Shown here: one piece after another, positions 4,808 through 14,120 of the stretch
Layout: each line of letters starts with the position of its first letter
Position numbering within the stretch: the first letter of the stretch is position 1
DNA from: a virus
DNA length: 20,515 bases
Direction: 5' to 3' (one strand)
Virus record (IMG/VR): IMGVR_UViG_3300032093_001038
Coordinates: 1-20,515 of that record
Program-made: the position numbers and the translations under genes
The notes under the pieces: model-generated
Databases searched by the model: none
What the model was told of the DNA's origin: nothing
Seen by the model: only the letters and a program-made list of their open reading frames with translations

Positions 4808-5089
4808 TTATTGGTTTATTACATACTTAATTCCCTTACTGATAGCCGACCTTGTGGACTTACTGAGGTATCCTCCAATGCCTTCCTTTTGCAGACTGAA
4901 TGCTAAGATTGTACCTGTGACCGAACCGAATTTAATCGAAGCCGTCTGAGCAAATTCATACACGGTCTTACCTTGCTTCACTAGGTCATAGACCTGCTGT
5001 CCATTGTCAAATGCAGAGGACTTTGGAAAGTCCCACTGACCTGTCTCGATAGCCGTTACATAGGCTTTTAGAATGTCTCTGTGTTTCAT
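4808..5089 (-). CDS. Hypothetical protein, 93 aa
   Basis: The ATG at 5089 (MKHRDILKAYVTAIETGQWD) is preferred over the one 24 nt upstream because it is preceded by the leader AAAACACAATG shared with neighbouring genes. The protein is mostly helical with a serine-rich C-terminus ending KYVINQ. Its last codons (AACCAATAA) are part of a recurring intergenic leader motif. The family is not recognised. Confidence 0.65.
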   Translation of the reverse strand: MKHRDILKAYVTAIETGQWDFPKSSAFDNGQQVYDLVKQGKTVYEFAQTASIKFGSVTGTILAFSLQKEGIGGYLSKSTRSAISKGIKYVINQ

Positions 5090-5102
5090 TGTGTTTTGTT
5101 TT

Positions 5103-5252
5103 TTATAGTTCATAAATTGTATCGAATATCCACTTACGAGTGCGGCACATATAGTTTATGTAATTATCTTCGTGCGCATCATCAACAAATTCTTTTTTGA
5201 TCAGAACTGACTTCCAGTTTTTTGATTTGAATACTACTAATCTTTTTTGCAT
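5103..5252 (-). CDS. Hypothetical basic small protein, 49 aa, downstream of a hammerhead ribozyme
   Basis: Read directly: MQKRLVVFKSKNWKSVLIKK, EFVDDAHEDNYINYMCRTRK and WIFDTIYEL. Its ATG (5252) lies 18 nt after the predicted cleavage site of the hammerhead at 5265-5326. Cleavage would leave a 5'-hydroxyl mRNA starting UUAACCAAUAAUAAAGUUAUG, minus its final base beyond 20. The same leader pattern precedes the gene at 5720-5905 after the other hammerhead. The paired arrangement supports this short frame as a real gene. The function is unknown. Confidence 0.6.
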   Translation of the reverse strand: MQKRLVVFKSKNWKSVLIKKEFVDDAHEDNYINYMCRTRKWIFDTIYEL

Positions 5253-5264
5253 AACTTTATTATT

Positions 5265-5326
5265 GGTTAAGACATACAGGCTGTTACACCTGTACGTTTC
5301 GTCTATTCAAGACTCATCAGTTAACC
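5265..5326 (-). ncRNA. Type I hammerhead ribozyme 2
   Basis: On the minus-strand RNA, in 5'-3' order: GGUUAA (5326-5321, stem I); CUGAUGA (5320-5314, core); GUCU-UGAAU-AGAC (5313-5301, stem-loop II); GAAA (5300-5297, core, whose last A pairs with U 5272); CGUACAGG (5296-5289) pairing with CCUGUAUG (5280-5273) through an 8-nt loop (stem III, one G-U); then U-C (5272-5271) and UUAACC (5270-5265, stem I). All conserved core positions are present and the cleavage triplet is GUC, so cutting is expected between 5271 and 5270. The ends lie in stem I, making it type I. The stop codon of the upstream gene is inside the core. This is motif recognition; activity was not tested. Confidence 0.9.
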
Positions 5327-5706
5327 TTTGCGCTAGGTTCTGTGATAAAATACTTCTCATCAAATTCGTAGCGCTCACCTTTGTAGTCAGGGTTGAATAT
5401 CAAGTCCTGCTTGCGTGTTTTGATTCCATTGCTGTCTGTACTTTCAACCCTTACCGGAATGCATTCCTGTGTGTATATTATTGTCAGCTCACTAACCTCT
5501 GACTTCCACCACAGAAACGATTGAAGGTCTGTGCTGATCTTCACAACCAATGTAGGTTCAGGGTTTTTTACATACTCCCCAAGGCCTACAAAGGTCTCGA
5601 TGATAGCTCCGCGGCTTGCGTAGAACTCGTTAAAATTGTCAGCTATTTCCTGAGCTGTGAAAGGGTTGTTATTCAACCCAATGTTTAAAGTTACTAGTGT
5701 GTTCAT
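5317..5706 (-). CDS. Hypothetical protein between two hammerheads, 129 aa
   Basis: Starts MNTLVTLNIGLNNNPFTAQE. The centre is beta-rich (TLVVKISTDLQSFLWWKSE, SELTIIYTQECIPVRVES). No membrane segment or known catalytic motif is seen. It ends AKVN followed by UGA UGA, and both stops lie in the CUGAUGA core of hammerhead 2. With the gene at 5720-5905 it forms the dicistronic segment between the two predicted cleavage sites. An ACTAGT (5693-5698) occurs in its first codons. The family is not recognised. Confidence 0.7.
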   Translation of the reverse strand: MNTLVTLNIGLNNNPFTAQEIADNFNEFYASRGAIIETFVGLGEYVKNPEPTLVVKISTDLQSFLWWKSEVSELTIIYTQECIPVRVESTDSNGIKTRKQDLIFNPDYKGERYEFDEKYFITEPSAKVN

Positions 5707-5719
5707 ATTACTTTGTTTT

Positions 5720-5905
5720 TTATTGGTTTATTATGTCTGTGATGCGCTGTGTGATGCTAGCTAGCATGAGCTGACCTTGCTCATTTAGGCTGTCGATTCC
5801 GTCCTCACCTTGTGACCAATCTGTAGTCCAAATTAGGCCGCGCCTTGACTCCTGTGTATCTAGCAGAAAGCTCATCGCTAGATTGTGAATTTGCTCTTGT
5901 GTCAT
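5720..5905 (-). CDS. Hypothetical small protein after hammerhead 1, 61 aa
   Basis: Starts MTQEQIHNLAMSFLLDTQES and ends LASITQRITDIINQ. It is a helical, soluble and slightly acidic protein. Its ATG is 23 nt downstream of the predicted cleavage site of hammerhead 1, so the processed mRNA would begin UUAACCAAUUU followed by an A-run and GUUAUG. It is the first gene of the 658-nt segment bounded by the two ribozymes. The family is not recognised. Confidence 0.65.
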   Translation of the reverse strand: MTQEQIHNLAMSFLLDTQESRRGLIWTTDWSQGEDGIDSLNEQGQLMLASITQRITDIINQ

Positions 5906-5922
5906 AACTTTTTTTTTAAATT

Positions 5923-5976
5923 GGTTAATACGACAGCGTTCTGTCGTTTCGAGTAACTAACTCTCATCAGTTAACC
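5923..5976 (-). ncRNA. Type I hammerhead ribozyme 1
   Basis: On the minus-strand RNA, in 5'-3' order: GGUUAA (5976-5971, stem I); CUGAUGA (5970-5964, core); GAGU-UAGUU-ACUC (5963-5951, stem-loop II); GAAA (5950-5947, core); CGACAG-AACG-CUGUCG (5946-5931, perfect 6-bp stem III); U-A (5930-5929); UUAACC (5928-5923, stem I). The last A of GAAA pairs with U 5930. The cleavage triplet is GUA, an allowed NUH, with cutting expected between 5929 and 5928. Stem I is identical to that of hammerhead 2 while stems II and III differ. It lies at the 3' end of the structured RNA (5977-6440) and 17 nt before the ATG at 5905. Confidence 0.9.
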
Positions 5977-6440
5977 TGCTTTGTTATTTAACGCCTAGAC
6001 ATAACTCTAGGTCTGCTACTTCGTTTCGTTGTCAGTGAAACTTTTCACTTACTTTCAGGGCGCTGTACTCATTCGCTAGTACATTGCTGTACATTACCGC
6101 GTATAGTCCCAAGACTCGCCCTATCTTCTCCCCTTCTATTTGAAGGGCTCAGGTCAGTTTAAGTGTGAATGTCTAACGTCATTCAGTTAACCACTTGCGG
6201 CATTTTTACCGCATTTGCGAGCTGACTCTCGTGCGCCTCTTACGAATCGGTACTCTTGCCTTTATCCACTGAAGTCGACATCTCTGCCGCAGCTTTGTAC
6301 CTGCGCCTTATCCTATTTTATTTTTATACCGATACTTAGGAGCAATAAATCGGTAGGTGGTTTTTGAGAGGAACTTGCATATCTCATGTGAGTAATCTCG
6401 TGGGTAACTACACCTGACTCCACTTTTTTCTGTCCGTTGA
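5977..6440 (-). ncRNA. Large structured non-coding RNA ending in a hammerhead
   Basis: About 460 nt with no credible coding frame, richer in G+C than its flanks. On the minus strand it folds locally many times: UACCGAU/AUCGGUA (6355-6327); CGCAG/CUGCG near 6300; CGAG/CUCG near 6225; UGCGGUA-AAAA-UGCCGCA near 6200; UGAAUG/CAUUCA near 6175; CCCUUC-AAAUA-GAAGGG near 6140; an enclosing AGGGCG/CGCCCU pair (6123-6118 with 6064-6059) containing AGUC-UUGG-GACU and GUACA-GCAA-UGUAC with a GNRA loop; AGUGAA/UUCACU near 6040; and CCUAGA/UCUAGG near 6005. The minus strand is favoured by its purine-rich loops, the upstream promoter box and hammerhead 1 at its 3' end. The class is not recognised. Large phage RNAs such as ROOL or GOLLD are possibilities I cannot test here. 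Confidence 0.7.
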
Positions 6441-6445
6441 CACGG

Positions 6446-6453
6446 CAAAGATA
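6446..6453 (-). promoter_or_regulatory. -7 promoter box for the structured RNA
   Basis: The minus strand reads TATCTTTG (6453-6446), an exact TAnnTTTG match. The same eight bases form the -7 box of the plus-strand promoter at 10602-10609. No good TTTG is present 20 bp upstream; a TTG lies only 14 bp away. Transcription would start near 6439, at the 5' edge of the structured region. Confidence 0.6.
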
Positions 6454-6479
6454 CATATAAACTCATCCAATAATCCTAA

Positions 6480-6600
6480 TAAAAAAATGTTAAAATTTAT
6501 AACTAATTGAAAATCAATAAGATAAAAGCGAAAATATTTGTTGTGTTTTATGGATCAAAGGTAAATTTAGGGTAAAATGAGAGATCGGTGGGTTAGTACT
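6480..6600. other. AT-rich stretch beside the palindrome array
   Basis: About 120 bp of very A+T-rich sequence with A and T runs (for example AATAAAAAAATGTTAAAATT) between the RNA promoter and the palindrome array. No coding frame is credible. Easily melted DNA next to repeated protein-binding sites would suit the unwinding element of a replication origin; this is inference. Confidence 0.35.
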
Positions 6601-6991
6601 TTGTTGTACTATATTACAACTTTTGAAAGCTGAGGTTACTTTTTGGCTAAAGGAAACAGGCGTGCGCGCCCATACGCGTGCGTATAGGCAAAAATCCGTT
6701 AACTTTTACGATTGTTGATAACTTTTTTTTCGGGGTGTTTTTTGTCCTGCTTTTGTTGTACTTTAATACAACGGATCCTCATTAGTTTTGTTGTACTTTA
6801 AGACAACATTTAAGCTGATCAATTTTGTACTTTAATACAACTTTTAGCACATTGCTTTGTTGTTATATATTACAACATTGTGACCTTTGTTTGTTGTCAT
6901 ATAACACAACGTACATATGTAGTACACTAGTATATTTTTGTTGTGCTTTAATACAACTTTTGATGATGCTCGCGTTGTGTTATAATACAAC
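6601..6991. repeat. Array of eight 20-bp palindromes, origin or operator candidate
   Basis: The consensus is TTGTTGTACTTTAATACAAC, with inverted arms GTTGTA and TACAAC. Copies begin at 6601, 6753, 6788, 6822, 6857, 6891, 6938 and 6972. Spacings are 152, 35, 34, 35, 34, 47 and 34 bp. The spacers share no sequence. A half-site also occurs at 6538-6550, and another in the leader of the primase gene (9455-9468). The region is non-coding; one long frame across it is a by-product of the repeats. It lies between the terminator of a DnaA domain IV-like gene and the promoter of the structured RNA. Iterons of a replication origin or an operator array are the main options. Confidence 0.75.
6672..6685. 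repeat. GC-rich inverted repeat inside the array region
   Basis: ATACGCGTGCGTAT has perfect 6-bp arms (ATACGC/GCGTAT) separated by GT. It fills the long gap between the first and second palindromes of the array and differs from them in sequence. It shares GCGTAT with the operator-like palindromes at 692-751. The role is unknown. Confidence 0.4.
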
Positions 6992-7113
6992 GGAATGCTA
7001 GGGTACTCGGTCCGCAAAAATCGGGTTCGGTCGATTGCGTGCGTGCGCATATAGTATATTGACCCTCCCCACACTATGTTCAGCTCATTTTCAGTTTTAA
7101 CCCCCTTAAAAGC

Positions 7114-7134
7114 AAAAAGGGGTATTACCCCCTT
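7114..7134 (-). terminator. Rho-independent terminator after the second DnaA-like gene
   Basis: On the minus strand AAGGGG (7134-7129) pairs with CCCCUU (7122-7117) around a 6-nt loop, followed by a T-rich tract (7118-7114 and beyond). It begins 31 nt past the stop codon at 7165, so it should end the replication operon and isolate the palindrome array from it. Confidence 0.7.
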
Positions 7135-7164
7135 CATAAGTCCTTACCCTTCAAATTTGATAGG

Positions 7165-7698
7165 TTAGAATCTATTCTTAGCCATCTTATCGTTAAGGTA
7201 TTTAACCACCTCATTAATTTTGTTTGTATAGAAGTCTGTGACCTCATCTAGTCCTTCGACTTTGATAGCTTGGGCTATTTTCCCTATACGTTGTCTGTAT
7301 TCTTTGCTAGAGAACATGAATCCGTTAGTTTTACGAATATGGTACACTATTGAGGATGCGTCCATTCCGATAAACTCTGCTATGAGTGGGTAGTTTTTGG
7401 GCATAGCTCCGTCACATAGGTATATCCACGCTCGTTTGGCTTCTATTTCGTTAGTTAGCCTAACACCGGACATTACTTGAGATGCGGTGGTTCCGTATTC
7501 GTCACAACAGGCATCTAGTATGATCCTCATGAACTCTTGTGGGTTATCCTTCCACGATTGGATGGGGACATCTCTTTCGAGGTAGTCTTTAGCTTCTGGG
7601 AATAGTGATTCATCCATCTGGACTATTAGCCTAAGGAATGTTCTTTTTTGGTGAGGCTTCACATATTCTAGGAGCCTCTTTATTCTAGTGTTATTCAT
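7165..7698 (-). CDS. DnaA domain IV-like DNA-binding protein (second copy)
   Basis: A 177-aa protein. Residues about 60-123 resemble DnaA domain IV: YGTTASQVMSGVRLTNEIEA, then KRAWIYLCDGAMPKNYPLIA, then a helix-turn-helix ending FIGMDASSIVYHIRKT. This last part aligns with the DnaA 'IG..FGRDHSTVIHA..K' signature, although GRDH is replaced by GMDAS, so base contacts would differ. There is no ATPase domain. The flanking parts are helical. It is the last gene of the replication operon, next to the palindrome array, which makes it a candidate binder of those repeats. An ACTAGT site overlaps its upstream region. Confidence 0.7.
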   Translation of the reverse strand: MNNTRIKRLLEYVKPHQKRTFLRLIVQMDESLFPEAKDYLERDVPIQSWKDNPQEFMRIILDACCDEYGTTASQVMSGVRLTNEIEAKRAWIYLCDGAMPKNYPLIAEFIGMDASSIVYHIRKTNGFMFSSKEYRQRIGKIAQAIKVEGLDEVTDFYTNKINEVVKYLNDKMAKNRF

Positions 7699-12257: not shown

Positions 12258-14120
12258 ATGAAAAAAGAACAGACAGTCAAATACAATCGTAATATAATAA
12301 TTACAGATTGTTTAATTAGTCAAAAGTTCCTGTTAATATCAGACATACACTTCGATAACCCTAAATGCCAAAGATCGGTTTTAAAGAGGCACTTGGATTT
12401 AGCTTTAGAGAACAATATGAAAATCGCTATCAATGGTGATTTTTTCTGTTTAATGCAGGGTAAATACGATCCAAGAAGGTCAAAGAAAGACATCATGCCT
12501 CAGCATAATGGGAACACTTATTTGGATTTGGTAATACAAGAGGCGGTTGATTGGTGGGCGCCTTACGCTAAGAATCTAATATTCATTGGTTATGGTAATC
12601 ATGAATGTTACCGTCCTGATACTGAAGTGTTTACAAAATACGGCTGGAAAAAAATAACAGAAATAACGACTGAAGATTTAGTTGCTACATTTGATTCAAA
12701 TAATGTTTATTACGAGAATCCAAATGCTGTTGTTTCTAAAAAAGCGGATGCTTTATACACCATTGAAGGAGCTTATACTAAACAGGTAGTTTCATCCAAA
12801 CACGCTGTCATGTTTAATAACATGGATAAGATTAACGCAGAGGATTTAATGGCGTTGTCTGAATCCCAAAGAATAACGGAAGCTGATTTACCTCATGGAA
12901 GGGTTAGATTGCAAGATGATGTTGAGCAAATACCTAATTGGATTGAGTTGATTACTGCTGTGGTTATGGACGCTACTATTGTTAATAACGCTAAGTATCA
13001 AGAAAATTCTAAAAAGATTCGTATTCAGTTTAAGCTCTCAAAGGATAGAAAAATTAAATATATTAAAGAGTTATTGGAGGCTAACGGAATACAATATACA
13101 TTTACAGAGTGTAAAAAAAGTGGATTGAATAAATTGCAACCTTACTACATTCGTATTTATGGAGATGATGCTAGAAGAATATTTGATTCTTTAGGTGGTG
13201 TTAAAAAATTACCTAGTTATTATAAAGATTGTAATAAGAGTGGATTTTTAGCTATGATGAATGCTATTGGTAATACTGACGCTAATGTGACAGGATCTAG
13301 TATGCTTTGGACATCTACTGATAAAGATAATGTTGATACTATTCAAGCGGCTTGTATAAACAATGGATGGAATTGTAAATACACTGAGCGAGATGGTCTT
13401 AGTGCATTTAAGAATGGTAAAAAGCAATATAAGGTTTTAATTTCAGAAGAATTAAAAAAGCCGAAGAAATTATCTATAACAAAAGAAGATTATGATGGTG
13501 ATGTTTATTGCTTAAATATGCCTTCTGGATGTTTTATTACTAGAATAGATGGTAAGGTAGCTTATTCAGGAAATACGGCCATCATTAAAAACGCTGAAAC
13601 AGACCCACTTCAAAGGTTTGTTGATTTGCTTAATCATACTACAGGATCTAGTGTTGTAACTGGAGGATACGGAGGTTGGTGGGTAATTAGACCAATGAGA
13701 AATAGTAAGGTAGAATATTTAAGTGCATTTAAAATTAAATACTTTCATGGATCTGGTGGTGGTGGGGAAGTAACTAAGGGTGTAATTCAAAATAATCGTA
13801 TATCAGTAAGAACAGAAGGGGCTGATTGCACTTGGCAGGGACACGTTCATGAGCTTTATCATGTTATTGACTCTAAGGAGACTTTGAGATTTCACTCAAA
13901 AGAAGGGTACACTGTTGAACATAAATATCTTCATCATATAAGAACAGCTTGCTATAAAGAGGAATATGAGGATGGATTTGGAGGTTATCATATTGAGAAA
14001 GGGCGTCCCCCAAAACCAATCGGAGGGTACATTTTGTCATTTGAATATGATAATAAGTCATATAAAGGAGAAAGGGATCGAGGTTTGATACCACACTTTA
14101 CGCAAGTTAGGGACAAATAA
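12258..14120 (+). CDS. Calcineurin-like phosphoesterase interrupted by an intein
   Basis: 620 aa as encoded; 297 aa after predicted protein splicing. The extein carries the metal-binding motifs of the calcineurin-like family: SDIH (D29, H31), NGDF (D61), GNHE (113-116), FHG (H497) and GHVH (H529, H531). Residues 117-439 are an intein inserted directly after GNHE. Without it the sequence reads GNHE-TAIIKNAETDPLQRF, the arrangement expected in phage phosphoesterases. The enzyme probably hydrolyses phosphodiesters of nucleic acids or nucleotides; the substrate is unknown. It likely has no complete active site until the intein is removed, since GNHE would be split from the downstream motifs. Confidence 0.88.
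   Translation: MKKEQTVKYNRNIIITDCLISQKFLLISDIHFDNPKCQRSVLKRHLDLALENNMKIAINGDFFCLMQGKYDPRRSKKDIMPQHNGNTYLDLVIQEAVDWWAPYAKNLIFIGYGNHECYRPDTEVFTKYGWKKITEITTEDLVATFDSNNVYYENPNAVVSKKADALYTIEGAYTKQVVSSKHAVMFNNMDKINAEDLMALSESQRITEADLPHGRVRLQDDVEQIPNWIELITAVVMDATIVNNAKYQENSKKIRIQFKLSKDRKIKYIKELLEANGIQYTFTECKKSGLNKLQPYYIRIYGDDARRIFDSLGGVKKLPSYYKDCNKSGFLAMMNAIGNTDANVTGSSMLWTSTDKDNVDTIQAACINNGWNCKYTERDGLSAFKNGKKQYKVLISEELKKPKKLSITKEDYDGDVYCLNMPSGCFITRIDGKVAYSGNTAIIKNAETDPLQRFVDLLNHTTGSSVVTGGYGGWWVIRPMRNSKVEYLSAFKIKYFHGSGGGGEVTKGVIQNNRISVRTEGADCTWQGHVHELYHVIDSKETLRFHSKEGYTVEHKYLHHIRTACYKEEYEDGFGGYHIEKGRPPKPIGGYILSFEYDNKSYKGERDRGLIPHFTQVRDK
12606..13574 (+). mobile_element. Intein with degenerate LAGLIDADG endonuclease
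   Basis: Residues 117-439 of the phosphoesterase, 323 aa. Block A starts at C117 (CYRPDTEVFTKYGWKKITEI). Block B is TKQVVSSKHAVMF with H182. Block F is DVYCLNMPSGCFITRIDG (415-432). Block G is VAYSGN followed by T440, so splicing would use Cys1, Asn323 and Thr+1. The usual penultimate His is Gly438, which some inteins tolerate. Between the splicing blocks are two LAGLIDADG-like helices: ELITAVVMDATI (acid D238) and FLAMMNAIGNTDANV (acid D341). In both, the final glycine is replaced. The homing endonuclease may be degenerate. Codon use looks like that of the host gene. Confidence 0.85.

Follow-up and report, generated by a model that had tools for sequence, protein, structure and literature searches.

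The closest described systems are the clustered prophage hammerheads of Perreault et al. (2011), which occur on either side of single genes or small groups of genes and for which the authors proposed a role in trimming long transcripts to the length of an operon or a gene (PMC3088659). For some of these tandem or clustered phage-type ribozymes, cleavage has been shown both in vitro and in E. coli. In the haloviruses HF1/HF2, the hammerhead HHphage lies 13 nt before an early gene start and its cut falls at the mapped mRNA 5′ end, the 5′ end of the HF2 early transcript mapping ≤3 nt from the cut (PMC3088659). The processing of polycistronic RNA by clustered phage hammerheads is already known; a 2017 review described the role of prokaryotic hammerheads as still an open question (PMC6155905). 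Retrozymes offer a further comparison, since they also consist of a segment (600–1000 nt) bracketed by two hammerheads, but they are LTR elements of plants, use type III ribozymes and yield a noncoding circular RNA.

The window analyzed in the present study is a complete stretch of 20,515 bases, a virus record that encodes a terminase, a portal and a primase/helicase. It carries two hammerheads on one strand with flanking phage genes, the arrangement (≥2, one strand, flanking phage genes) by which clustered hammerheads are recognized. Like the clusters of Perreault et al., the loci described here place several hammerheads around single genes or short gene blocks. Unlike those clusters, they are built from a uniform compact type I ribozyme (6-bp stem I, UNANU-type loop II) at fixed spacing from stop and start codons, with up to nine per array. 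As far as the literature and Rfam show, the strict codon geometry, the compact uniform form and arrays holding as many as nine ribozymes within 5.8 kb are new, as is the lack of any match to the family at Rfam thresholds. HHphage differs in being single and salt-adapted, with core insertions, and in belonging to an archaeal virus. Unlike retrozymes, the window pair is type I and protein-coding, without LTRs.

Two type I hammerheads of a compact phage family

The features of the window that bear on the argument are, in the order of transcription:

6446 to 6453, minus strand: TATCTTTG, candidate −7 box
5985 to 6310, minus strand: structured noncoding leader, directly upstream of HH1
5923 to 5976, minus strand: HH1, type I hammerhead (core pattern, three-stem descriptor, covariance model)
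5271 to 5928, minus strand: predicted excised RNA of 658 nt with two ORFs (cut-site arithmetic)
5720 to 5905, minus strand: 61-aa ORF, ATG 23 nt past cut 1
5317 to 5706, minus strand: 129-aa ORF, weak phrog_11722 match, function unknown
5265 to 5326, minus strand: HH2, type I hammerhead (core pattern, three-stem descriptor, covariance model, fold)
5103 to 5252, minus strand: 49-aa ORF, ATG 18 nt past cut 2

HH1 joins the core CUGAUGA...GAAA to stems I (GGUUAA/UUAACC), II (GAGU/ACUC) and III (CGACAG/CUGUCG), with a GUA triplet and a predicted cut at 5929|5928. HH2 has the same 6-bp stem I, a GUCU/AGAC stem II, a 9-bp stem III and a GUC triplet, with a predicted cut at 5271|5270. Both follow the hammerhead core rule (CUGANGA...GAAA with A15.1-U16.1 and H17) and are assigned to type I because all three stems are present and stem I is open. 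Two complete minus-strand hammerheads of this type had been read from the letters in the original prediction, and its coordinates and type proved exact on recheck, as did the cuts (5929/5928 and 5271/5270) and the 658-nt excised length; the 61-aa and 129-aa genes that it placed inside the segment correspond to ORFs at 5905-5720 and 5706-5317. Hammerhead chemistry leaves 5′-OH and 2′,3′-cyclic phosphate ends. The predicted RNA would start with a 5′-OH at UUAACCAAU... and finish with HH2 stems II and III and a terminal GUC. The search of its encoded proteins returned no informative family, the 61-aa ORF having no match in Pfam or PHROG.

A core-plus-triplet pattern finds only two sites in the window, at 5970 and 5320 (minus strand), and 0 in 100 shuffles. 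Our own descriptor, which requires the hammerhead core plus three stems, gave 0 matches in block-shuffled sequence, and its matches across 837 kb (the window and related loci) all belong to one compact phage hammerhead family. In phages that share the primase/helicase, it recovers four relatives in locus L009, three in L011 and one each in L023, L086 and L087, the last two ahead of ORFs related to the 129-aa ORF at 41% identity.

The covariance-model check proposed in the original prediction fails with Rfam at default settings, even though the two ribozymes are genuine. Rfam returned no match across the whole window at E≤1 or at gathering thresholds, and zero matches at gathering in ten array-bearing related loci holding about forty hammerheads. 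When 5230-6020 was scanned alone (791 bases), RAGATH-1-hammerhead (RF03152) appeared at 26.0 and 22.4 bits, neither ribozyme reaching the gathering score of 56.3 bits. This best Rfam match shares the core and the open stem I, but HH2 aligns to model positions 22-77 only, without the 5′ hairpin, and the 5′ hairpin of the model aligns to HH1 with several broken pairs. The whole-window miss is a sensitivity failure, not evidence of absence. A covariance model built from 54 relatives scores the window copies, both within its training set, at 63.8 and 65.6 bits, against 21 bits for the best non-family match in 507 kb (its E-values are rough). A common phage ribozyme is missed by current Rfam models.

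HH1 and HH2 are members of this large compact family, whose hallmarks are a stem I of exactly 6 bp and a UNANU-type loop II. Two independent scans of IMG/VR, both giving prevalence as a lower bound, were specified by the 5′ half only (first) or by the core and loop II only (second). The first yielded at least 140 distinct seeds, at least 123 of them completing a full hammerhead; among the matches listed, U16.1 is found in 122/123 and C or A at position 17 in 123/123. The second yielded at least 113 seeds and at least 110 complete hammerheads, with U16.1 in 110/110 of the matches listed and position 17 occupied by C (105) or A (5). Neither position is set by the patterns, and over both scans the matches listed carry U16.1 in 232/233 and C/A at position 17 in 233/233. 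The second scan is an unbiased sample. Among the matches listed, all 110 have a stem I of exactly 6 bp, built on 44 distinct 5′ strands, and stem I is flanked by A on both sides in 110/110.

In the 54-sequence alignment, 98.6% of cells are paired (vs 71% when shuffled and 21–43% when slid), and 13 of the 15 pairs changed on both sides. Because of this covariation within a family of fixed geometry, the reading of HH1 and HH2 as self-cleaving hammerheads able to release a dicistronic RNA is well supported at the sequence level; we infer their catalysis and cutting in vivo. It is highly improbable that they are inactive relics or motifs kept for a DNA-level reason. One degenerate copy, its stem II broken, does exist in Flavobacterium phage elemoF. 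Compensatory changes that preserve RNA pairing are nevertheless unexpected for relics or DNA sites, as is a cleavage-site nucleotide that is never G or U among the matches listed.

Gene junctions and the probable processing of the operon

The family is tied to codon boundaries. With crude ORF calls, an ORF of ≥30 codons begins ≤150 nt from the cut in 149 of 158 distinct members, its ATG lying 16–29 nt past the cut in 129 of these 149 (median 22). The upstream stop falls within stem I or the core in 62/139, as the TAA of GGTTAA or the TGA of CTGATGA, and most of the others directly adjoin the ribozyme; in the window, the UGA stop of the 129-aa ORF (5319-5317) lies within the HH2 core CUGAUGA. 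In a wider set (n=301), an ORF starts 16–32 nt past the cut in 57% of cases vs 4.4% for random nearby placements, and the ribozyme lies inside an ORF in 1.7% vs 51%. The family also occurs in Pelagibacter phage HTVC019P and its relatives, in which no ATG lies close to the cut; the stop/start geometry is therefore not universal.

In arrays, hammerheads occupy most gene junctions; L160 has five of them, and L209, over 5.8 kb, has nine. Neighbors are separated by a median of 619 nt, and the window's pair by 650, in a gene block with ribozymes at just 2 of its many junctions. The view that such a tandem pair is an unusual arrangement finds no support: clustered prophage hammerheads were published in 2011 (PMC3088659), and IMG/VR holds many arrays. 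The excised segment makes better sense as one stretch of a punctuated operon than as an object in its own right. An apparent ortholog of the 129-aa ORF in L009 (12295-12663) also has a hammerhead after it, though the next gene differs, so ribozyme positions persist while adjoining genes change.

We favor, with a probability of about 0.75, the reading in which HH1 and HH2 are catalytically active type I hammerheads acting as operon punctuation, because co-transcriptional self-cleavage explains the geometry best. RNA polymerase would transcribe the minus-strand gene block from a promoter upstream, and each ribozyme would fold on emerging from the polymerase and cut in cis, constitutively. The HH1 cut would detach the structured noncoding leader from the 61-aa and 129-aa genes, and HH2 would part this gene pair from the 49-aa gene and onward. 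Each upstream product would end in the stem II and III hairpins of the ribozyme with a 2′,3′-cyclic phosphate, and each downstream mRNA would begin with a 5′-OH and a short A-rich leader (23 and 18 nt here) before its ATG. The likely benefit would be mRNAs with defined ends, their stability and dosage uncoupled from the remaining operon. A 5′-OH escapes 5′-phosphate-dependent decay, and a 3′ hairpin withstands 3′ exonucleases; from such general knowledge of RNA decay, we infer that cutting would protect the ends and stabilize the products. The leaders past the cut in L161 form a predicted short hairpin whose stem is apparently compensated between copies (AGUC...GACU, AGUG...CACU), which fits end protection. 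With its repeated stop-to-start placement and its occurrence in cultivable phages, the family makes operon punctuation testable.

The folding of the two ribozymes bears on whether cutting is constitutive. The minimum-energy fold of HH2 contains the three hammerhead stems. That of HH1, whose loop II (UAGUU) is off the UNANU consensus, is a non-hammerhead structure (−16.4 vs −13.4 kcal/mol for the hammerhead fold), in which a competing hairpin pairs UUAACU with AGUUA. Because its rival structure is favored by 3 kcal/mol, HH1 may cut slowly or be regulated. Ribosomes ending the 129-aa ORF would cover the HH2 core, which may restrict HH2 cleavage to a fraction of the transcripts. A regulated switch, in which the gene downstream would have its translation set by cleavage or by the alternative HH1 fold, could draw on the presence of the same hairpin in L009 and on the overlap of HH2 with the upstream stop, by which translation could gate folding. 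It is unlikely, since predicted start-codon accessibility barely shifts on cleavage (mean unpaired 0.644 to 0.675, 229 cases) and neither loop II nor stem III holds a conserved sensor domain family-wide. Unmasking of the start codon by cleavage was ruled out, the effect being too small.

Because HH1 and HH2 of the window share one stem I sequence, the two ends of the excised RNA could pair within HH2. Once both sites were cut, UUAACC at the 5′ end of the 658-nt RNA would pair with the GGUUAA of HH2, and this ribozyme would then ligate the ends to give a dicistronic circle, much as retrozymes do. The cross-pair is perfect in the window, and 62% of neighboring ribozyme pairs are cross-compatible vs 22% of pairs between contigs, the figure for neighbors being still 73% among those with divergent stems II and III (n=34). 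However, GGUUAA is conserved across the phages of the window's group, so that stem I identity within one phage is expected, and many arrays (L088, L096, L302, L314) contain mutually incompatible stems I. Perreault et al. sought circular or spliced products of clustered hammerheads and found none (PMC3088659). Rejoinable ends conserved in relatives would mark a retrozyme-like pair; the ends are compatible in the window and often incompatible in arrays. Such a circularizing pair is improbable, and circularization as a general role was ruled out because stem I varies within many arrays.

The upstream leader and tRNA-like elements at related junctions

The structured leader ahead of HH1 (window 5985-6310 on the minus strand; L009:11340-11601) has hairpins compensated relative to L009, the motif CGAGTCTTGGGACTATAYGCGG and a possible GUCAG/CUGAC pseudoknot. 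It matches no Rfam family, and ARAGORN called neither tRNAs nor tmRNAs in this region, whether in the window or in its relatives. L009 holds an HH1 ortholog at the same place, behind the same leader, and the two ribozymes differ only in stem III, by compensatory changes (GACAG/CTGTC to GCTAG/CTAGC). Farther upstream, the box at 6446..6453 fits the TAnnTTTG of Bacteroidota promoters, aligns with TAGGTTTG in L009 and is a possible transcript start; TAnnTTTG occurs 31 times in the window over both strands, which makes it weak promoter evidence. Several imperfect repeats of the type GTTGTATTAAAGTACAAC lie upstream of the leader (6740-6990, minus strand) and are possibly operators or origin iterons.

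The motif CGAGTCTTGGGACTATAYGCGG is found as well in L226, L227 and L229. There a tRNA-like structure, not a hammerhead, comes after the leader (L227:5939(-), L229:12305(-), L226:12547(-)); it consists of a T arm and a 7-bp acceptor and ends 21–24 nt before an ATG; ARAGORN called no tRNA in these structures. Minimal tRNA-like elements of acceptor plus T arm, AAACAGG CATGGTGCAAG...GGGTTCGANTCCC...CCTGTTT, lie in the gap that separates a stop codon from the following ATG, and their acceptor pairs covary between phages:

L227:5546, minus strand: minimal tRNA-like element
L229:11825, minus strand: minimal tRNA-like element
L286:7837, plus strand: minimal tRNA-like element
L339:723, minus strand: minimal tRNA-like element
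L342:641, minus strand: minimal tRNA-like element

Tentatively, gene junctions may be marked by interchangeable RNA-processing signals, hammerheads or, in sister phages, tRNA-like minihelices presumably cut by the host RNases P and Z. Either cut would leave an mRNA 5′ end ∼20–25 nt before the ATG. If this is true, these phages would, as a general strategy of gene expression, divide their messages by cuts of their own or of the host's making, much as tRNAs punctuate transcripts in mitochondria.

Distribution of the family

BLASTN of window 5000-7200 against isolate phages gave no match. The nearest isolates by primase (34–40% identity) include Flavobacterium and Cellulophaga phages and, together with the TAnnTTTG box upstream of the leader, suggest the probable host and early timing. 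Degenerate family copies occur in Flavobacterium elemo phages. A few Bacteroidota genomes have model matches (5/400 in the Mucilaginibacter family) and the bacterial matches inspected are not in arrays; the family is therefore mainly a phage feature. A whole-record search of selected contigs added one match, in the L161 record beyond the analyzed stretch.

Elsewhere in the window, a 620-aa metallophosphoesterase-like ORF (12258-14120, plus strand) contains an apparent intein with a LAGLIDADG-type domain, its Pfam matches being weak and below cut-off. Type III hammerheads, some near an ATG, were observed in related contigs (L331:19138(-), L333:972(+), L108:6103(+), L117:12641(+), L154:747(+)) and in Flavobacterium elemoA and Pelagibacter HTVC019P. 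The contig L209 (JAAGZR010000219.1) is binned as an Aliivibrio MAG; given its nine hammerheads and a short-stretch match to Flavobacterium phage elemo DNA, it is probably a mis-binned phage contig.
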